Positions 5,881 through 64,000 are shown, counted from the first letter of the stretch. The stretch is DNA of 64,000 nucleotides from Nitrospirota bacterium (GCA_021789595.1 JAJYJJ010000006.1:75747-139746); one strand, 5' to 3'. The notes: a model not told the origin generated them from the letters alone. Numbers and translations are program-made.

Positions 5881-6093
5881 TTATTTCCCTGCCCAAATTT
5901 TGTGATTTTTTGGATCTGGGATTCCAAGTTGTCTACAAATCTTAATTGCCAATAGGTCGGCAATCTCATTGTGTCTCGGAACAGTAGTAGATTTCTCAAT
6001 ATTGGCAAGATTTATATAACGGCTGTGTTTAGCTCCTTCTCTCAAAAGAACACAACCATGGCGTTCTAAATGCCTGATTAGTTCTTTCCCAAT
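5881..6093 (-). CDS. hicA: HicA-family mRNA interferase toxin, no standard start codon
   Basis: Not in the ORF track because the frame has no ATG, GTG or TTG at its head. Translation of 5881-6093 gives about 70 aa beginning GKELIRHLERHGCVLLREG and continuing KHSRYINL, then TTVPRHNEIADLLAIKICRQ. This is the pattern of the HicA/YcfA double-stranded-RNA-binding-like toxins, with the catalytic His in the AKHSRY strand. The frame is closed by TGA just upstream, so the only initiation choices are ATT (6093) or a -1 shift from hicB, whose last codons contain G GGA AAG. The 16-bp overlap with hicB fits a coupled toxin-antitoxin pair. It could also be a 5'-damaged, inactive toxin. Confidence 0.75.
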   Translation of the reverse strand: MGKELIRHLERHGCVLLREGAKHSRYINLANIEKSTTVPRHNEIADLLAIKICRQLGIPDPKNHKIWAGK

Positions 6094-6295: not shown

Positions 6296-6835
6296 TCACC
6301 TCCTATTTAAAGATATTTTACCCTTTCCCTTCCGCAATCTCAATCTCCCGCCCTCTGCTGATGGATAATGTGCCCTGCCCCTTTTCTTTTTCTCCTTTTG
6401 AACGTCGGTAACGTTTTCGGTAAAGCCCATTCGCTGGGCAAACTCGGCATTTGCCTTTTTCCATTTGCCAAACCAACGTGTAAGGCCGAGAAATTCTATA
6501 TATCGCGATGCTATCTTGGAACTGATATTTCTTATGCTCACGTTTTCGATATAGTCGAGCTGGTATTTCGGGACTTTAAGGGAAGCTGCCGCTTCCTTCA
6601 GGGTCATGCCTCTTGCTGTGCGGGCCCCCGCAAGGCGAGCAGCAACCGGCTGAAAACGGAGAGTATCTTCAAGGCTGATGGCGTACTTATCGGACAGCGC
6701 GGCAAATGTCGGTCCCATGAATTTCCGCATATGTCCGGCAAATGCCTTGATCTCATCATCTGTAAGAATCCGTCTGCGAAATGGCTGATGTTTCTTTGTC
6801 AAAGGCATCTTCTTATGTCTGTTTTCCTTGGTCAT
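6296..6835 (-). CDS. XRE-like helix-turn-helix protein, C-terminus encoded by an island repeat
   Basis: A 179-aa basic protein with a central helix-turn-helix-like segment (ARTARGMTLKEAAASLKVPK followed by QLDYIEN), so probably DNA-binding. No named family is recognised. The last 40 or so residues (RGRAHYPSAEGGRLRLRKGKG) are translated from repeat copy A (6334-6378), which elsewhere in the island is non-coding; the original gene may have ended earlier and the reading frame now runs through the repeat. Its stop lies in the hicB ribosome binding site, so it may be co-transcribed with hicBA and could be its regulator. Confidence 0.65.
   Translation of the reverse strand: MTKENRHKKMPLTKKHQPFRRRILTDDEIKAFAGHMRKFMGPTFAALSDKYAISLEDTLRFQPVAARLAGARTARGMTLKEAAASLKVPKYQLDYIENVSIRNISSKIASRYIEFLGLTRWFGKWKKANAEFAQRMGFTENVTDVQKEKKKRGRAHYPSAEGGRLRLRKGKGKISLNRR
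6334..6378 (-). repeat. Island repeat copy A
   Basis: Minus strand reads GGGCACATTATCCATC then AGCAGAGGGCGGGAGATTG followed by AGATTGCGG. It is the best match to copies B-D. Unlike the others it lies inside an open reading frame (the XRE-like gene), 44 bp upstream of hicB. Confidence 0.7.
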
Positions 6836-6844
6836 TCTCCCTTT

Positions 6845-6887
6845 CTCTCATCTCCTGCCCTCTGCACTTCAGATAATGCGCCTGTGC
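6845..6887 (-). repeat. Island repeat copy B
   Basis: Minus strand reads GCACAGGCGCATTATCTGAA then GTGCAGAGGGCAGGAGATG. It begins 21 bp after the stop codon of the DUF3024 gene and ends about 10 bp before the ATG of the XRE-like gene, so its last part supplies that gene's ribosome binding region. Confidence 0.7.
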
Positions 6888-6908
6888 TTTTTCTCTCGCT
6901 GTTCATTT

Positions 6909-7256
6909 TTATCCCCAGAAGATTCCCGTAGGATCGCGGTCAATTTCAGCCAATATTTGATCGATATTTTTTGTCGGCAATAGACCATCGTATTTGTGCC
7001 ATCGGTTATTGCGATCAGCGCAATAGAGAGTCCATTCTCCTGTCGTTTCATTGTATCTTATCTGGGCAATAGGCATTGAAGTCCATTCTTTTATGTCCTT
7101 GTGCCACGGCGCCCTATTTTCAAAGATGGTAACGCTGTTGCCCCTTATTTTATATGACAGGTTCACCTTATCAAGCACATGCGCCGGGACTCTCCTCTTG
7201 CAGAAGTCGCCAACTTTCTTTTCAATAAATGTTTTTACTAAAACCGGAAGCGGCAT
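6909..7256 (-). CDS. DUF3024 family protein
   Basis: A 115-aa protein with the layout of the DUF3024 family: a basic N-terminal half, APWHKDIKEWTSMPIAQIRY in the middle, a DRNNRWHKYDG stretch and the family-typical ending DRDPTGIFWG. The function of the family is not known; members are small, cytoplasmic and often found in variable regions. It forms a single-gene module bounded by repeats C and B. The ATG at 7256 follows an AGGGGG site. Complete as far as can be judged. Confidence 0.8.
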   Translation of the reverse strand: MPLPVLVKTFIEKKVGDFCKRRVPAHVLDKVNLSYKIRGNSVTIFENRAPWHKDIKEWTSMPIAQIRYNETTGEWTLYCADRNNRWHKYDGLLPTKNIDQILAEIDRDPTGIFWG

Positions 7257-7352
7257 ATAAACCCCCTAAGTTTTTTAATGCTCTCACTCTCCTTGCCTAT
7301 CTTTTTTTCTTCCACTTCTGCGCTAAGGCACTACTGTGCTGTGGAACTTTGT

Positions 7353-7393
7353 TGAATCTCCTGCCCTCTGGACGCAGATGATGGGGCCGTGCC
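7353..7393 (-). repeat. Island repeat copy C
   Basis: Minus strand reads GGCACGGCCCCATCATCTGC then GTCCAGAGGGCAGGAGATTC. It starts 8 bp after the mazF-like stop at 7402. About 100 bp of sequence without recognisable features separate it from the DUF3024 start. Confidence 0.65.
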
Positions 7394-7401
7394 GCTCTTT
7401 G

Positions 7402-7737
7402 TTATGCAATGAGCTTAAGAAAAAAGTCCTTTATTTTGGAAAGAATGTCAGGTTGTACCCTGCCAAATGTTTTAAGGGCAATTGATTTATTCAAAGTGTA
7501 AACTTTATCAGCCCTTATCATGTTCGTAACTTTTAAAGTACCTTCCTCCATGTCATCGCCTGTAAGCATAATGGTAAAGTCACGAGATTCAACATTCGAG
7601 GTAAGGGCAGCAACTACAATGTCTTCATGAGTTTCATTGTAATTATCACTGGAGATTATAACAGCAGGACGTTTTTTCTGGGAAGTTAAATCTGTAAAAG
7701 GTATGGGGATAAGAATAATATCGCGCTGTTTAAGCAT
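7402..7737 (-). CDS. MazF/PemK-family endoribonuclease toxin
   Basis: A 111-aa MazF-like protein: QRDIILIPIPFTDLTSQKKR followed by PAVIISSDNYN form the opening strands with the conserved Arg-Pro, and VTNMIRADKVYTL carries the second conserved region. Family members cleave single-stranded mRNA at short motifs. The ORF track start (7752) lies deeper in the antitoxin gene; ATG 7737 sits eight bases over the antitoxin stop with a weak GGA site and is more likely. It pairs with the 65-aa upstream protein as a type II toxin-antitoxin module bounded by repeats D and C. Confidence 0.88.
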   Translation of the reverse strand: MLKQRDIILIPIPFTDLTSQKKRPAVIISSDNYNETHEDIVVAALTSNVESRDFTIMLTGDDMEEGTLKVTNMIRADKVYTLNKSIALKTFGRVQPDILSKIKDFFLKLIA

Positions 7738-7927
7738 TATTCCAGATTGCATCGTCTATCGGATTATCCCAGAATTTAAGACTGCTTTCTGCTGCCTGCA
7801 TCATTTCAAGAGATTCTTCTTCAGGCAAAATTATCACTTCAACCCTTGAGCCTTTCGGCAGAGGGACAACAGGTAATTTAATCGTGCCGTTTTCTTGCAC
7901 TACAGAATGATATTTTAATGCGTTCAT
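7730..7927 (-). CDS. Antitoxin of the MazF-like pair
   Basis: A 65-aa acidic-tailed protein overlapping the mazF-like gene by 8 bp. Its N-terminal half (VVQENGTIKLPVVPLPKGSR then VEVIILPEE) looks like a short beta-rich DNA-binding domain of the kind found in DUF2281 or AbrB-like antitoxins; the C-terminal half would wrap the toxin. It is preceded by GAGGAGGCAAGGC, a strong ribosome site. Assignment rests on size, order and overlap with a recognised toxin more than on sequence family. Confidence 0.78.
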   Translation of the reverse strand: MNALKYHSVVQENGTIKLPVVPLPKGSRVEVIILPEEESLEMMQAAESSLKFWDNPIDDAIWNNA

Positions 7928-8002
7928 GCCTTGCCTCCTCTTTTGGCTTATTTTACCATAGAGAGCAGTTATTTAATCCACCCCTCCACTCTATGAGTCG
8001 TA

Positions 8003-8050
8003 GACAATCTCAATCTCCCACCCTCTGCCCGACGGATAATATGCCTATTT
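8003..8050 (-). repeat. Island repeat copy D
   Basis: Minus strand reads AATAGGCATATTATCCGTC then GGGCAGAGGGTGGGAGATTG followed by AGATTGTCTACG. It starts 14 bp after the stop codon of the PIN-domain gene and lies about 75 bp upstream of the antitoxin ATG. It shares the double GAGATTG/GAGATTG ending with copy A. Confidence 0.7.
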
Positions 8051-8064
8051 TCCATAGAGCATTT

Positions 8065-8544
8065 TTAATATTTAATTCCTATCTCTTTAAAAAAATCTAT
8101 TAACTCAAGGCATTTTAATCCAAACATGGAAGATATTACTGGAATTCTATTTTGTGTATTTTTCTCATCCGCAACGATGATTGCTTCCTCACAAATGCCA
8201 AGAGCTATCACCCACGGATCAGCCCACTTTGGTTTATTAATTTCATTTTCCCAATAGCTTTTATCATACCGATTTTTAACTTCCTGAAGTTTTTGGATTT
8301 GACATTTATCTACATCCTTGAACATCACCTTGTTACTTTTACACCAATCATAAGTTTTATCCTTTCCAGCTTCAATTTCTCCATAGACTTCTAAGGGTGC
8401 TATTAACTCTCCATTTTTTATCATACTTTCTAAATTGCTCCAAATTGTGGGGAATACGTCTCTCCGGAAAGGCTTGAGATTTATTAAGGAGCTTGTATCA
8501 ATGCAATATACTGTTTTCGGGAATAATTCTGGCACTCGGGGCAT
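8065..8544 (-). CDS. PIN-domain protein, DUF4411 family (putative toxin RNase)
   Basis: A 159-aa PIN-fold protein: the first metal-binding Asp is in VYCIDTSSLINLK, a middle acidic cluster in LEVYGEIEAGKDK, and the last acidic strand in WADPWVIALGI and IIVADEK. This pattern matches DUF4411, a PIN-like family repeatedly found next to XRE-ImmA/IrrE proteins. Predicted role: RNase toxin of a toxin-antitoxin pair. It starts six bases after the stop of the upstream ImmA/IrrE gene, so the two are one operon. All acidic positions expected for metal binding seem present. Confidence 0.85.
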   Translation of the reverse strand: MPRVPELFPKTVYCIDTSSLINLKPFRRDVFPTIWSNLESMIKNGELIAPLEVYGEIEAGKDKTYDWCKSNKVMFKDVDKCQIQKLQEVKNRYDKSYWENEINKPKWADPWVIALGICEEAIIVADEKNTQNRIPVISSMFGLKCLELIDFFKEIGIKY

Positions 8545-8550
8545 TAGAAA

Positions 8551-9633
8551 TTACCGCTCAATAAATTTTTCTGTGTATTTTGCTTTCAAACTTAAGATAT
8601 CCATTACCTCGGAATAGGAAATTTTACCCGACCGATAAGCATTGGCAGCCTCTCTGACAACTAAATTTCCAACGCGATTCTGAAATACTTTATCCCAATC
8701 TCTACGGCCAAACTTTTTTTCCTTTAATTTCTTTTCTCCCTCCCTTTTGAACTGTTCATATCTTTCTTTTGGCATATATCCTAACCAAAGAAGTCTAAGC
8801 ATAATTACCTGTTTGCTTACCCCATAAATTTGGGAAAGCTCTGAAACTGTGTTTTCATCTAATTGCAAAAAACTTTTATATGCCTCTTTTAAGTCATCTA
8901 AGGGGACAAGGAATTCAGCAGAAAACAAATTACAGCTTGCTTCTATGTCTCCATCTTTTTGCTCAATCTCTATTGAACATATACCAGAGGTTCTTTTTAA
9001 TAAGTGATATATTTCGTGAAAAAGAGAGAATAATTTAATTGATGGATTGTCTTCTTCATTTAGAACAACGATAGAAACATCCGCAGAAACACTAAAGCCT
9101 CTAACATCGTCAGCCTTCAAAGGTAATTCAATGACTGATATTAATAATTTTTCTTCTAATGCCTGTTTATAATACGCTAATATTTCTTCCGCCTTTTTCG
9201 ATTTCAGCAAATCAACGGTCAAATATTTTCTTAATTCTAATGCCAATTCATCAGGTTTTAATGCCTCCGGAAAATCCGGAATCTGACTTCTTTTGTCGGT
9301 TAATTCGGCTAATTTGTTGGCAATGTAATAAGCCCTTCTTTCAGCTACATATACTTGTGGGGTTAATCTTTTTTCGCGATTTATTCTATAGTCAGTCAGT
9401 GCAGGCATTGGAGGGAGTGTGTCTGTAAAAAATGCAGCAAGGGAACGGTGATAAATATCAGCCAGTTTTTTTATCTGAGTCAAAGTAAATGAAGCAATAC
9501 CCTTTTCTGCCTCTTGCACTTTAGTAGCAGTGGTCTTAATTTTTTTTGCTATCTCCTCAACCGTATATCCAGAACTTTCGCGGATTGTTTTCAACACCTC
9601 AGGATTAACTTTTATTACCGGGCTTCTTATCAT
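8551..9633 (-). CDS. XRE-HTH plus ImmA/IrrE metallopeptidase (putative antitoxin/regulator)
   Basis: A 360-aa two-domain protein. The N-terminal 70 residues form an XRE helix-turn-helix (ESSGYTVEEIAKKIKTTATK). The central domain carries the zinc peptidase motif HEIYH within LFSLFHEIYHLLKRTSG, followed by EASCNLFSAEFLVP, the ImmA/IrrE pattern. Proteins with this layout cleave or sequester repressors, or serve as antitoxins for a partner. Here the partner is the DUF4411 PIN protein six bases downstream. Base composition is visibly A+T-richer than the core genes, which fits horizontal acquisition. Confidence 0.9.
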   Translation of the reverse strand: MIRSPVIKVNPEVLKTIRESSGYTVEEIAKKIKTTATKVQEAEKGIASFTLTQIKKLADIYHRSLAAFFTDTLPPMPALTDYRINREKRLTPQVYVAERRAYYIANKLAELTDKRSQIPDFPEALKPDELALELRKYLTVDLLKSKKAEEILAYYKQALEEKLLISVIELPLKADDVRGFSVSADVSIVVLNEEDNPSIKLFSLFHEIYHLLKRTSGICSIEIEQKDGDIEASCNLFSAEFLVPLDDLKEAYKSFLQLDENTVSELSQIYGVSKQVIMLRLLWLGYMPKERYEQFKREGEKKLKEKKFGRRDWDKVFQNRVGNLVVREAANAYRSGKISYSEVMDILSLKAKYTEKFIER

Positions 9634-9660
9634 TGTTAGTTATCTCCTATTATTATTTTT

Positions 9661-9703
9661 ATCTCAATTCCCCATTCACCCTTCAGATAATGTATCCATC
9701 CCT
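9661..9703 (-). repeat. Island repeat copy E (diverged)
   Basis: Minus strand reads GGATACATTATCTGAAGGGT then GAATGGGGAATTGAGAT. CATTATCTGAAG and ATTGAGAT agree with the other copies while the centre has changed. It starts about 18 bp after the stop of the 235-aa gene and ends just before the ImmA/IrrE ribosome site. Confidence 0.6.
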
Positions 9704-9721
9704 TTTTTTTCTTGAATATTT

Positions 9722-10429
9722 TTACAAAAAGATTGACCTTTGAGAGATCGAGTCATATATAAATAAACCACAAAATTTTACAATACTTCTCTCTAACTTG
9801 AAGTAGTCAATAAGCTTTTTAATAATCTCTATCCATTCATCCTGTATTATTAAGGTGTCTGGGAACAAAGGTATTATTAGATAAGTTTTGTCAGGATATT
9901 CTTTATTGACCTTGTCCTCAATACGTGACTTTATGTATTCAAAATGTTCATTAATCACGTCATCCGGTGTGAAAACTCGAGGTAAAGATTGAATCGTTCC
10001 ATCTTTCAATCTTTCTATATTATTACCTCCAAAACATGGTATTCCCTTTTCAAGGCACTCCCTTTTTAGATGATCTTTTGGATGAATTGAGACAGATACT
10101 TCGAGAAAGTATTCAGGGCACATAACCTGTTGCTCTACGAACCAGCCCCCGCAATAAATCTTGGCATCAAAATTCTGGTTTCCAGAAAAATACTCACAAT
10201 ATAAGTCTAAGCCCGGTCTTTCAAAAACTTTAAGAAATTGTGAAATAGGTAAAAGTTCCTCTATCAACTTCTTACAATTGTCTTTCCTTAATCTGAGTCT
10301 TGAAATCCCATCTTCAGAATTTCTTGTATTCATAAACAGAGCATTAACTTTTTCTGTGAATTCTTTTGATGGTAATCTTTTTTCAAAATCATTTAAGTCA
10401 ATTATTTGATTGTACTCTACATTTTTCAT
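9722..10429 (-). CDS. Hypothetical protein, possible nuclease-like partner of the restriction system
   Basis: 235 aa, no signal peptide or membrane segment, not recognised. The middle contains a beta-strand-like run with charged residues, NFDAKIYCGGWFVEQQV then YFLEVSVSIHPKDHLKRE, loosely reminiscent of a PD-(D/E)xK nuclease core, but the expected E-x-K is not clear, so this is only a suggestion. It lies immediately downstream of the type IIG restriction-modification gene in the same direction, separated by the degraded repeat copy F, and forms its own repeat-bounded module. Confidence 0.6.
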   Translation of the reverse strand: MKNVEYNQIIDLNDFEKRLPSKEFTEKVNALFMNTRNSEDGISRLRLRKDNCKKLIEELLPISQFLKVFERPGLDLYCEYFSGNQNFDAKIYCGGWFVEQQVMCPEYFLEVSVSIHPKDHLKRECLEKGIPCFGGNNIERLKDGTIQSLPRVFTPDDVINEHFEYIKSRIEDKVNKEYPDKTYLIIPLFPDTLIIQDEWIEIIKKLIDYFKLERSIVKFCGLFIYDSISQRSIFL

Positions 10430-10450
10430 TGGATCTTTTCCTTGATAAGT

Positions 10451-10485
10451 ATTGTAATTCTCACCTCTTTACCTTCTGAAATCTG
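10451..10485 (-). repeat. Island repeat copy F (degraded)
   Basis: Minus strand reads ATTTCAGAAGGTAAAGAGG followed by TGAGAATTAC. With one or two gaps it aligns to ATTATCTGAAGGGCAGAGG of the consensus. The match alone would be weak; its position about 20 bp after the stop codon of the restriction-modification gene, as for copies B-E, is the stronger reason to include it. Confidence 0.4.
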
Positions 10486-10504: not shown

Positions 10505-13500
10505 TTAGTTCTTCCCCTCCACAATCGCAACTTCCTCTGGCGTAAGATTATAGAGTTTGTAGACTATCCGATCTATCAAATCGTCGGTTGTGTTTATTCT
10601 GATTTTTAAAGGTTCAAGAACATTCATGCTTTTTGTGAAATGATATTCAAGAAGTTCTTGCTTCTTTCGGTTTGAAGGGTCAATAGATAGCTTGTTTTTA
10701 TTCTTTTTGAGGACGACAAGCAGATGGTTGAAGTCATTGTCATGATATTCCTTGATAGCAGTTTTATTTGGCAGGTCATCAATTCCTGTGCCTATTTCTC
10801 TTTCAAGCCACTTAAGAAAGCCTTTGGTTTCCTTATTTTTAGCCTTGCTTAACTCGATCATCTCTTCGGCGAGAAAGGCAAGGAAATCGTGAATTGTATC
10901 ATTTCTCTTTAAAGCAAGCTCATGCTCTGACCATTTTATAATGTCCTCATATATTGAATCCTCGTATAGCTCAATAGCCTCACCGGCAAATTCTTTCCGT
11001 TCCATTGATGGGGTGATAAATGAAATAGGCGGCATGGGCATTGAGTCAATTTCGTAAGAATTAACATGATTGTTTGTGCTCGTGAGCCTGAATCTCCATT
11101 CCCATAAGGATGAATTCAATAAGGCAAGAATAGCAAAGAGGTTGTATTCTTTTGGTTTAACAATGTAATTAATGGTATCTGAACAGAAACTGTCTTTCTC
11201 AATAATAGTAGCAATGATTCTACGCCAGTTATCTATGGCTGCTCCTCTCTGATAACCGATGCGAACATATTTATGGTCATATGCTTTTGTATCTTTACCA
11301 TGAGCATTAAGAAAACTTTTGACATCAAGATACATCGGAATTCCTTGTTTCGGATCTTCCTGAAACTCATAACGATTTATATGCGCGCCCCTCAGAATGA
11401 TCTGTCCTTTTTCTTCATCCGTCAGATATTCGGAGTGTGATGTAAGATTAACCTCTCCCTGTTGAGATGAAACAAAGCGTTTAAGCGTTATCCCATTAGA
11501 AACTTTGTTCAATTTTAACGCAAGATTAAAATCCTCTGTCGTCATAGTTGGATAGCTTGGAATACTGAGATTTTCTTTATCGAATTCTTCGATCTGAGAC
11601 GGCTTTATCGCTAAATGAGTAGAGGAATCAAGAATATCTCTCCCTGGATGAATTCTAATATCGAACAAAAAAGGTTTCTGTTTAGAAAGAATATATATAC
11701 AAGTGGGAAGCTTTGCCTCAAAAAATACCCTATTGAAAGGGTCATCCTTTTGAGGGAATGCTTCTATTTTTTGCAAACAATTCTTCCTTAGCATAAACTC
11801 CCTTAAGGGTTTTGCTTGCTTATCTGCTAATAAAGCCATCGGGACTATAAATCCATGCATCCCTTTAGCCTTTAGCAAATTCAAAGAAATAGCGCTAAAG
11901 AGACGATAAAGATTAAGTTTGCTTCCAATGGCAGGTCTATAAAATATCTGCTGCGAAAAAAAATCCTTTTCATAGTCAACATTTATTCCCTGCTCAAGCT
12001 CTGACAAAACATCATACGGCGGATTTCCAACTACGCAATCAAATCCCGGATTCTCTTTAATGCTCCCGTCTTCATAAAAAAACACTTCCGGGAATTCAAG
12101 CTCCCAGTGGAAGAAGTTTTTCTCTCTGGCTATGGCTTCGGATTTCTCAAGCAATGTCGCGAGTTTTGGAAGTTGCATATTGCCCTCAGGACTTTGCAGC
12201 GAATTTACAATGAAGCTGTAAATCTGATTTGATAAGCCTGTTTTTGATTTCTTTTTGACAGCAATCTCGGTCTCCGAACCGAAAATATCCATCTGATACC
12301 TGAACTGGTCTTTCAGGAGTTCTTCAAATACCTGCTCTTTTTCCTCAAGGTTATTGCCAAAAAATAAACTTGTCCATAGGTCAGCAATCTCTCTATACCT
12401 AATGAGTTCTTCCGTCAATTTGTTAAATGTCTTTTCCTTTGCCTTTATATCCGAAAGTTTCTCGCTCGGCATTTCCTCTATCGAATGGAAACCTTTGATT
12501 ACTGTTGTGATGTCCTCTCTAAAACGAGATTTATCAAAAAGCACAAGTTGCTCGTCCTGTTCTTCCGACTTCTTATGCTTTCCTTTTGACAGCGGCAGAT
12601 AATTCAAATCGTTAATTCTTGCGCCGATGAGCGAGTTGCCGCACCTGAGATGGTGGTCTAAAAAATTAAGCGGCTGGCTTTTATCAACGGTCTTAAGCCA
12701 CAAAGAAAGCTTTGCAAGCTCAACAGCTAATTCTTTTATGTCAACACCGTAAATGCAGGACTCTACCACCTTACGCTTCCAGTAATTAATCTCATCCTCT
12801 GTTTCGCCTTTTGGTGTCTTTATTTCTGTTGTTGGATGGTATGCAATCTCATCCGCAAGATATTGAACTGCCTCGACAAGGAAATGCCCTGAACCCATCG
12901 CAGGGTCACAGATATTGAGCTTTAGAACCTCCCCAGCAAAAGAATCGCCTTTCTCCAAAGCCCCCCTTCCCCCCTGTGGAATCATAACTCCCCCTTCGCC
13001 CCCTCTTATCTTAAGAGGGGGGTTGGGGGCGTTACTCTTCTCTTGATGGGATGGGTTGGGGAGAGTGGCTAATCTTTCGTCTATTCCCTTTATGATCGGA
13101 CCAAGAGTATTTTCAACGATATACTTAACGATGTAATCAGGTGTGTAATATGCCCCTGTCGCTTTTCGTTCGCCTTTATCGTTTTGAAGAACTACTTTAC
13201 CGTTAGTAAGGCTAAATTTGTGTTCAAGCAAACCTTCATAAACGGTTCCAAGATGTCTTTCCCCAAGCCCCTTGTAATCAATGCTATGGGTTTCCCCTGT
13301 TTTGTCAGTGCGGTAAGAGAGCTCATAAATCACTTCTGAGAGTATATCGTCACCTGCCTTATTTTCTTCAAGGAATTTATACTTCTCAGGATCAAAGAGG
13401 CCGCCGTTATATCTCGGAATACTCATATCTTTGTTGAGCTTTTCATCACTGCCGTTTATAAGATGAAAAAGAGCTAAAAGGGCATCATACAGAACTGTTT

Positions 13501-14506
13501 TATTGCTTATAAATTCGCCCTTTTCATTCGTTACCTTATCCTTTATCCTCTGGATACCGTAATGTTTGTAGTATTTTGTTTGTGGATTTGTGGAAAGAAG
13601 GTCTCTTGCTTCAGCATTAAGCACAAACAGTATCCTATATAAAAGAATAAGGCTGTGATGGTATATAGAGTCGAGGTCTTTTTTTGAAAGGAGATTTTCT
13701 TCTCTGGACAGGAATCCATGCCCAAGCCATTCAACGCATTTAAATACTTTTTCTCTAAGGTCTTTCTCAATATCTTCCTGAAATCTCAGTGATTCATCAG
13801 AAATATAATCAAGGAGACATTTGCCCGAATTATCTTTTACAAAGGCATCAGGTCTGAAAAGAACATAGAAATACTTGAACTTCTGAAAGTCTTCAAGGCA
13901 TGCCTCAAGGTTTATTTCAAAGAATTTGCTTGAACGCCCCTCTTTAAGATAAAGCCTCCACTCCTTAGCATTGGTAAGAATTCCCCATCTTATGTGTTCA
14001 GATTCGTTAAGATAATCTCTTATTTGTTGGTGTGGATACCTGCCTTTGGGAGCTTTGCCCTTACCGGAAGAAGGCTGGTCTAAATTATGATCCCAGCGTT
14101 TTGATTCTGCAATTGAAATTGCCAGACTGTACTTTTTATGTGAAGACAGCTCAAAGGCTTTATCTGCATCTTCAGGGGTGGAATAAAGGAAATAATCCGG
14201 GACTTGTCTACGCTCTGCTTCAGGGATCTTATCCTGATTAAGATAACCAAAGCCTAACTTGTTTAAAATCTTATCAATAAATCTTCTTTCGGTATTGGCT
14301 TCATTCCCTTTTCTCAAGCCGACAATGTTTTTATCGTATAATTCTTGAAAAGCTTTATATGCAGGGAGTACTTCTTCGTCAGAAGGCCAGATTTTTGGCC
14401 CTGCTTGCGGCAGGCGTTCCAAGAGATAATGGCTTGAAAAGATGCCTGATGTTATCCAGAGGTCTTTAAACAACGGTGGCTGTATTTTTTTACCGGATTT
14501 CGCCAT
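10505..14506 (-). CDS. Type IIG restriction-modification protein (nuclease-methyltransferase-specificity fusion)
   Basis: A 1333-aa single-chain R-M enzyme of the Eco57I-like group. The N-terminal part holds a nuclease-like core: VPDYFLY, then SLAISIAESKRWD (PD...E-x-K). The middle carries the adenine methyltransferase motifs: SAM-binding NICDPAMGSGHFLVEA and catalytic DCVVGNPPYDVL (NPPY). The C-terminal 400 residues would be the target-recognition domain (RGAHINRYEF and later NSYEIDSMPMPP). It should methylate one strand at an adenine and cut at a distance. No separate methylase or specificity gene is present. A repeat-derived insertion (NPPLKIRGGEGG) lies just before the SAM motif. Confidence 0.92.
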   Translation of the reverse strand: MAKSGKKIQPPLFKDLWITSGIFSSHYLLERLPQAGPKIWPSDEEVLPAYKAFQELYDKNIVGLRKGNEANTERRFIDKILNKLGFGYLNQDKIPEAERRQVPDYFLYSTPEDADKAFELSSHKKYSLAISIAESKRWDHNLDQPSSGKGKAPKGRYPHQQIRDYLNESEHIRWGILTNAKEWRLYLKEGRSSKFFEINLEACLEDFQKFKYFYVLFRPDAFVKDNSGKCLLDYISDESLRFQEDIEKDLREKVFKCVEWLGHGFLSREENLLSKKDLDSIYHHSLILLYRILFVLNAEARDLLSTNPQTKYYKHYGIQRIKDKVTNEKGEFISNKTVLYDALLALFHLINGSDEKLNKDMSIPRYNGGLFDPEKYKFLEENKAGDDILSEVIYELSYRTDKTGETHSIDYKGLGERHLGTVYEGLLEHKFSLTNGKVVLQNDKGERKATGAYYTPDYIVKYIVENTLGPIIKGIDERLATLPNPSHQEKSNAPNPPLKIRGGEGGVMIPQGGRGALEKGDSFAGEVLKLNICDPAMGSGHFLVEAVQYLADEIAYHPTTEIKTPKGETEDEINYWKRKVVESCIYGVDIKELAVELAKLSLWLKTVDKSQPLNFLDHHLRCGNSLIGARINDLNYLPLSKGKHKKSEEQDEQLVLFDKSRFREDITTVIKGFHSIEEMPSEKLSDIKAKEKTFNKLTEELIRYREIADLWTSLFFGNNLEEKEQVFEELLKDQFRYQMDIFGSETEIAVKKKSKTGLSNQIYSFIVNSLQSPEGNMQLPKLATLLEKSEAIAREKNFFHWELEFPEVFFYEDGSIKENPGFDCVVGNPPYDVLSELEQGINVDYEKDFFSQQIFYRPAIGSKLNLYRLFSAISLNLLKAKGMHGFIVPMALLADKQAKPLREFMLRKNCLQKIEAFPQKDDPFNRVFFEAKLPTCIYILSKQKPFLFDIRIHPGRDILDSSTHLAIKPSQIEEFDKENLSIPSYPTMTTEDFNLALKLNKVSNGITLKRFVSSQQGEVNLTSHSEYLTDEEKGQIILRGAHINRYEFQEDPKQGIPMYLDVKSFLNAHGKDTKAYDHKYVRIGYQRGAAIDNWRRIIATIIEKDSFCSDTINYIVKPKEYNLFAILALLNSSLWEWRFRLTSTNNHVNSYEIDSMPMPPISFITPSMERKEFAGEAIELYEDSIYEDIIKWSEHELALKRNDTIHDFLAFLAEEMIELSKAKNKETKGFLKWLEREIGTGIDDLPNKTAIKEYHDNDFNHLLVVLKKNKNKLSIDPSNRKKQELLEYHFTKSMNVLEPLKIRINTTDDLIDRIVYKLYNLTPEEVAIVEGKN
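12957..13032 (-). repeat. G/C-run palindrome inserted in frame in the R-M gene
   Basis: The plus strand holds CCCCCTCTTA, a short loop and TAAGAGGGGG flanked by further C-runs and G-runs (AGCCCCCCTTCCCCCC, GGTTGGGGGCG). On the coding strand it encodes NPPLKIRGGEGG and more, between IIKGIDERL and the SAM-binding motif. The same type of element, encoding NPPVPPLLRGGEGG, is in nagA at 36363. The reading frame is kept in both. Confidence 0.75.
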
Positions 14507-63907: not shown

Positions 63908-64000
63908 AAGGTCAAGGCACACGGCCTATTAGTACTGGTTAGCTCAATGCCTTACGGCACTTACACATCCAGCCTATCGACCTAATAGTCTATTAGGGGC
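63908..64000 (-). rRNA. 23S ribosomal RNA, 3' end
   Basis: The reverse strand reads GGTCGATAGGCTGGATGTGT, AAGTGCCGTAAGGCATTGAG and CTAACCAGTACTAATAGGCC, the universal 3'-terminal region of bacterial 23S rRNA. The gene extends beyond the window. The 114 bases between its end and rpoD do not contain a 5S gene. Confidence 0.95.

Follow-up and report, generated by a model that had tools for sequence, protein, structure and literature searches.

A cassette-like array of gene modules in Nitrospirota and its candidate recombination site

Background

In integrons, attI and attC have a common 7-bp core, GTTRRRY, in which recombination takes place between the first two bases; the attC substrate is the bottom strand in folded form (PMC8876359). 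Outside integrons and large mobile elements, the means by which defence and toxin-antitoxin genes are exchanged so rapidly is an open question. The dif site consists of inverted XerC and XerD arms.

The window, that is, the whole stretch of DNA analysed here, has 64,000 nucleotides (G000:C11:75747-139746) and comes from a Nitrospirota MAG of 2.23 Mb in 36 contigs. A preliminary description of the window reported an accessory island in which one short repeat stands behind almost every module, and likened this arrangement to integron cassettes.

Results

The genes of the island are encoded on the minus strand in the order R-M gene, 235-aa ORF, repeat copy c5, ImmA/IrrE and DUF4411, c4, MazE-like and MazF, c3, DUF3024, c2, XRE-like ORF, c1, and HicB. 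The repeat is made of two parts. The approximately 45-bp "A-box", which ends with GGCAGAGGGCGGGAGATTG, belongs to the upstream module, and the right side, often TGGAGGGGAA, opens the next module. The common core is GGAGATTG(A/C)GATTG. Copies were scored with R2, a profile of the repeat with 70 positions. The features are as follows.

10505..14506, minus strand: type IIG-like restriction-modification (R-M) gene (Eco57I/N6-MTase/TaqI_C), putative array anchor; Pfam Eco57I 9.1e-31, N6_Mtase 1.2e-14
10509..10536, minus strand: R-M 3' end (..LTPE-EVAIVEGKN, then stop), putative anchor core; R2 match at model positions 41-68
9722..10429, minus strand: module 1, 235-aa protein without Pfam family
9660..9710, minus strand: repeat copy c5, degenerate A-box and diverged core; R2 26.0 bits, E 1.5e-6
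8551..9633, minus strand: module 2a, XRE-ImmA/IrrE protein; Peptidase_M78 5.9e-15, HTH_3 5.6e-7
8065..8544, minus strand: module 2b, DUF4411 (PIN-like) protein; DUF4411 5.7e-28
7997..8057, minus strand: repeat copy c4, A-box and core, then a 16-bp insert, TCTACGACTCATAGAG; R2 55.8 bits
7730..7927, minus strand: module 3a, MazE-like antitoxin ORF upstream of MazF; 95% aa to G429
7402..7752, minus strand: module 3b, MazF/PemK toxin; PemK_toxin 7.5e-15, 92% aa to G429
7351..7400, minus strand: repeat copy c3, A-box without right half; R2 33.4 bits
6909..7256, minus strand: module 4, DUF3024 protein; DUF3024 1.7e-36
6846..6896, minus strand: repeat copy c2, A-box without right half; R2 41.8 bits
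6296..6835, minus strand: module 5, HTH_25 (XRE-like) ORF, frame continuing across c1; HTH_25 9.9e-6
6322..6387, minus strand: repeat copy c1, full, with A-box, core, and right half; R2 56.2 bits
6078..6299, minus strand: module 6, HicB-like (DUF1902/UPF0150); DUF1902 1.4e-5
near 5881-6045, minus strand: HicA-like ORF after the HicB-like one, assigned by eye alone

Five of the six copies described earlier (c1-c5, minus strand) are real. The sixth, at about 10465-10485, is not a copy; R2 instead matches the R-M 3' end (10509-10536), where the right half of the repeat alone is found. The repeat is also longer than the approximately 40 bp given to it, and bipartite. As described, c2-c5 start closely behind a module, approximately 2-13 bp after the stops of the DUF3024, MazF, PIN, and 235-aa ORFs. 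This does not hold for c1, since the XRE-like ORF (6296-6835) reads through it. This ORF has no stop ahead of c1 and its frame crosses the repeat (HYPSAEGGRLRLRKGKG), so the repeat may encode the protein's C-terminus, or a stop codon may have been lost. Pfam families of the window proteins agree with the earlier statement that the modules are mutually unrelated. Relatives of the DUF3024 protein are found in Nitrospirae, Nitrospinota, and Thermodesulfovibrionales, and in one locus (L003) the repeat likewise follows the relative's gene. The end of a 23S rRNA gene lies at the right edge of the window (63908-64000), and an Rfam search of the window returned rRNA alone.

The sequence GCAGAGGGCGGGAGATTG has four matches in the window at three mismatches or fewer (0.04 expected), all on the minus strand and all in the island. 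Over the whole 2.23-Mb genome, R2 finds five copies (E 4.9e-15 to 1.6e-5), again all in the island, and the next-best matches have E values of at least 0.027. The consensus of 25 copies is AAAAAAnGnACAGGCACATTATCCnTCGnGCAGAGGGCnGGAGATTGAGATTGTGGAGGG (first columns abbreviated), with a mean column identity of 73%; its segments include CATTATC, GCAGAGGG, and GGAGATTG. Many copies have a near-identical stretch of 18-24 bp, GCAGAGGGCGGGAGATTGAGATTG. The repeat exists as full copies, as left halves that stop near position 49-50, and as right halves alone. Solitary A-boxes adjoin sequence without the right half, and conservation stops at GGAGATTG. Small inserts within the core separate GGAGATTG from the right half (L087, L089, L092, L095, L101, L119, and the window at approximately 7290-7355). 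They include a 44-bp palindrome (CCCCGCACTT..AAGTGCG), CCTGCC..GGCAGG palindromes, and an approximately 65-bp GTTCCACAG.. stretch.

The repeat does not look like attC, as had been noted from the window. GTTRRRY occurs in 0 of 84 copies, and no consistent fold is found. Single-strand folding, which the preliminary description had proposed as a check, gave a negative result: the alignment has no consensus base pairs, the consensus has no dyad, and neither strand folds in excess (mean fold z -0.43 for the top and -0.10 for the bottom strand). These results bear on the idea that the repeats are degenerate attC sites moved by an IntI-type integrase encoded elsewhere. Such an integrase scores over the curated cut-off in 12 of 20 genomes, one of which is the window's own, but the missing core and bottom-strand hairpin oppose this idea. 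In addition, G136 and G427 have repeats and no integrase over the cut-off, and the 18 intI loci give one R2 match (E 0.18), with no A-box in the intI surroundings. This explanation is largely refuted. The earlier statement that no integrase is present thus holds for the window and for the neighbourhood of every repeat copy; it does not hold for the genome, which encodes an integron-type integrase on another contig (G000:C4:162436-163368; L175:9434-10672, minus strand; 412 aa; 426.8 bits; TIGR02249 431 bits). The protein matches the IntI4 structure 2a3v (E 6e-84). The integrase is complete; its gene has an apparent transposase fragment as neighbour and lies less than 1 kb from a contig end, and many relatives have similar integrases.

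The search for a linked recombinase was likewise negative. The commonest families among 107 array proteins are ParE, Fic, zeta toxin, DUF3800, PIN, ResIII, and MazF, and no recombinase is among the best 25 of the 90 families. Nor was one seen when the array contigs of G442 were scanned by eye. This result and the absence of any excised or circular form of a module in the genomes compared count against a dedicated site. Tyrosine recombinases are encoded in 20 of 20 genomes, and a Xer-type recombinase may be the enzyme, although the repeat has no dif-like dyad; the dif-like TTATNTTAA is found in 1 of 84 copies, the genome's own dif not being among the sequences compared. A serine recombinase was rejected as the mover: PF00239 is missing in 10 of 12 genomes, the window's own among them.

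Y1 transposases are encoded in 11 of 12 genomes and RAYT genes adjoin repeats in two arrays (L037 and L039). With the small palindromes inserted in the core, these genes could point to spread of the REP/RAYT or another mobile-repeat type, in which the repeat itself is the mobile unit. However, the A-box has no REP-like fold, full copies of the window's own genome are all in one array, and gene modules travel along with the repeat. Such spread is improbable.

The core is also found in coding sequence. It encodes the last codons (EIEIV or EIAIV) of type IIG-like R-M genes, and the right half, GAG ATT GAG ATT GTG GAG GGG AAA, reads EIEIVEGK, the C-terminus of type IIG-like R-M proteins. R-M tails of this type are found at many arrays. 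Many right-half-only sites consist of ..ALERQIDKMVYALYGLTPE followed by EIEIVEGKG and the stop, and foreign sequence elsewhere joins exactly between the two. The right partner has a 16-bp variant, YCTRYRRCTCRTAGRG, which stands behind A-boxes and also behind an R-M tail. ATTG directly precedes it in 24 of 27 occurrences, which come from overlapping loci and represent 11 distinct contexts. As left partners, the R-M tail and the A-box are thus interchangeable, in the manner of attI and attC. R-M remnants with an internal deletion exist in three genomes (L007:2269, L036:7150, and L037:5304), and nearly the same N-terminal point (..HYLLERLPQ) is fused to the last codons. Derivation of the A-box from the R-M N-terminus, hinted at by CAGGCA..CATTATCT, was rejected: for the two R-M genes concerned, alignment scores of 18-21.5 against a null mean of 20.5 are not significant.

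In an all-against-all blastn comparison of the loci, shared blocks start and stop at repeats. Apart from some outliers, their left ends group around the core at about -16 to +1 and their right ends at +8 to +21. For example, an antitoxin-PIN module is 95-98% identical at the nucleotide level in G104, G380, G213, and G302. G104 and G302 are members of separate families; their modules are 97.8% identical and their ileS genes 71.3%. The left flanks differ in all four genomes, and identity begins at (G)GATTG. At the right end, three of the four keep the module's own A-box through GAGATTGAGATTGT and then diverge; in G302, identity stops earlier, at the left edge of the A-box. MazEF of the window is 92% identical to that of G429 (nucleotides) and is also found in G104, standing behind three different A-boxes in G000, G104, and G429. 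ImmA-PIN is 87.7% identical to its counterpart in G244 (nucleotides); a shared block of 87.1% identity begins at c5 and ends shortly ahead of c4. Proteins of ten clusters are encoded ahead of A-boxes in more than one genome family. Because near-identical modules in distant families break at the core and recur with different neighbours, exchange of modules with the repeat as their boundary is well supported and very probable. The earlier proposal, in which exchangeable modules of one or two genes each have a constant repeat at the 3' side, is therefore upheld, and modules do vary at the repeat boundaries. A-box motifs persist between genomes with approximately 71% identical ileS, suggesting constraint or repeated transfer.

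A common place of insertion lies in front of leuB, away from leuD. leuD-leuB is uninterrupted in G126, G256, G430, and G213, all of one family, whereas A-box modules precede leuB in G431, G104, G274, and G136 of the same family. A second variable place is found before an MTA-phosphorylase-like gene. The genomes compared are mostly draft MAGs, one per species, which puts recent strain-level gain and loss of modules out of view. The leuB arrays (L127, L093, L132, and L136) have a common right flank with a TTGTTT-TATAAT-like promoter, which could restore leuB expression.

The same block ends could arise by ordinary homologous (RecA) or homology-facilitated recombination at short common sequences with no dedicated enzyme. 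Most breakpoints lie within approximately 30 bp of the GCAGAGGGCGGGAGATTGAGATTG stretch, so the block-end data fit a dedicated site and homologous recombination alike. At 18-24 bp in many copies, this stretch is long enough for homologous or homology-assisted events, the right half is common to R-M 3' ends and repeats, and the best 25 families hold no linked recombinase. On the other hand, homology between repeats is short and imperfect, as the mean column identity indicates. Moreover, solitary A-boxes are joined to sequence that lacks the right half, and A-box motifs outside the common stretch (CATTATC) are conserved, for which a further reason would be needed. Homologous recombination is the main rival and we consider it unlikely, though clearly less so than the other alternatives discussed here.

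Within the class, 35 of 231 genomes have R2 matches; for the phylum the figure is 30 of 396, and four of these 30 genomes do not belong to the class. A pattern search of the phylum gave matches in 15 of 396 genomes, and a reversed control pattern gave 0. G442 has the most copies (14). No match to the repeat was found in the plasmids searched, no exact match of a 26-base pattern in viral contigs, and no match for the sequence or description of the repeat in the literature. Among 84 distinct A-boxes, a number that depends on a motif filter set by us, the nearest ORF end is a same-strand stop within 60 bp in 39% and within 150 bp in 61%, compared with 6% and 15% for random positions. The copies are thus not placed at random relative to gene ends; as modules also vary at repeat boundaries, neither outcome that the preliminary description had named as a refutation was obtained.

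This location, on the gene's strand and shortly after its stop codon, would also suit a 3' mRNA or regulatory element (a stabiliser, or one for processing or re-initiation) that hitch-hikes with the gene while turnover of the island has another cause. The right side gives a Shine-Dalgarno-like GGAGGGG ahead of the next start. Such an element has little probability: the repeat has no stable fold, and the breaks of identity at the core and the R-M coding ends with the core would be left unexplained.

Discussion

The reading we prefer is that the island is a cassette-like array and the repeat a dedicated recombination site; from the sequence comparisons, we give it a probability of roughly 55%. 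Supporting it are the R-M tails that carry the core, the breakpoints at the core, and the position of the repeat behind genes. Each module would consist of one or two genes with their own 3' repeat, the A-box, whose end is the core GGAGATTG(A/C)GATTG. Right after the core, the next module would start, mostly with TGGAGGGGAA, which is a possible ribosome-binding site. Because the last coding stretch of the R-M gene is the same core, the R-M 3' end may act as the first-position anchor, attI-like in layout, and the A-boxes would be the module sites, attC-like in layout. Modules would move through recombination at the core, most likely by a trans-acting site-specific recombinase recognising the A-box. 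It is plausible that the repeat is an actively recombining insertion site.

More tentatively, at somewhat less than even odds, the arrays may represent a new cassette-capture system that moves toxin-antitoxin and defence modules around Nitrospirota by means of non-folding, non-palindromic sites (A-box and GGAGATTGMGATTG core), an R-M 3'-end anchor, and an unlinked or unrecognised recombinase. One short site accounts for module boundaries across many families of the phylum and ties them to an R-M gene end. It also provides a defined DNA sequence for direct testing of the exchange reaction, and of the enzyme if there is one.

Among known systems, the arrays resemble integron cassettes and CALIN in having one-ended modules, each with a 3' site, in a single orientation, with an anchor that has the same core, with many toxin-antitoxin modules, and with no integrase beside the array. 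Unlike in integrons, the repeat has neither the GTTRRRY core nor the attC fold, the anchor is inside the R-M gene 3' end, and there is no linked IntI. The absence of a conserved fold or dyad, unlike most recombinase sites, counts against a dedicated site. Xer pdif modules of Acinetobacter plasmids also place toxin-antitoxin and other modules between short sites without a linked recombinase; our repeat, unlike theirs, has no inverted XerC/XerD arms, is on chromosomal contigs, and has all sites in one orientation. As in the 3'-end islands of tyrosine recombinases, a gene 3' end is targeted and its last codons are restored by the element, but no integrase gene is seen in the modules and the modules have only one or two genes. 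REP/BIME with RAYT are similar in that short repeats are near gene ends and RAYT genes are found in some arrays, but the repeats here have no palindromic fold and travel with gene modules. The repeat behaves in the manner of integron cassettes and pdif modules, but it does not fit their site definitions as far as these were tested, and it is outside the known cassette families.
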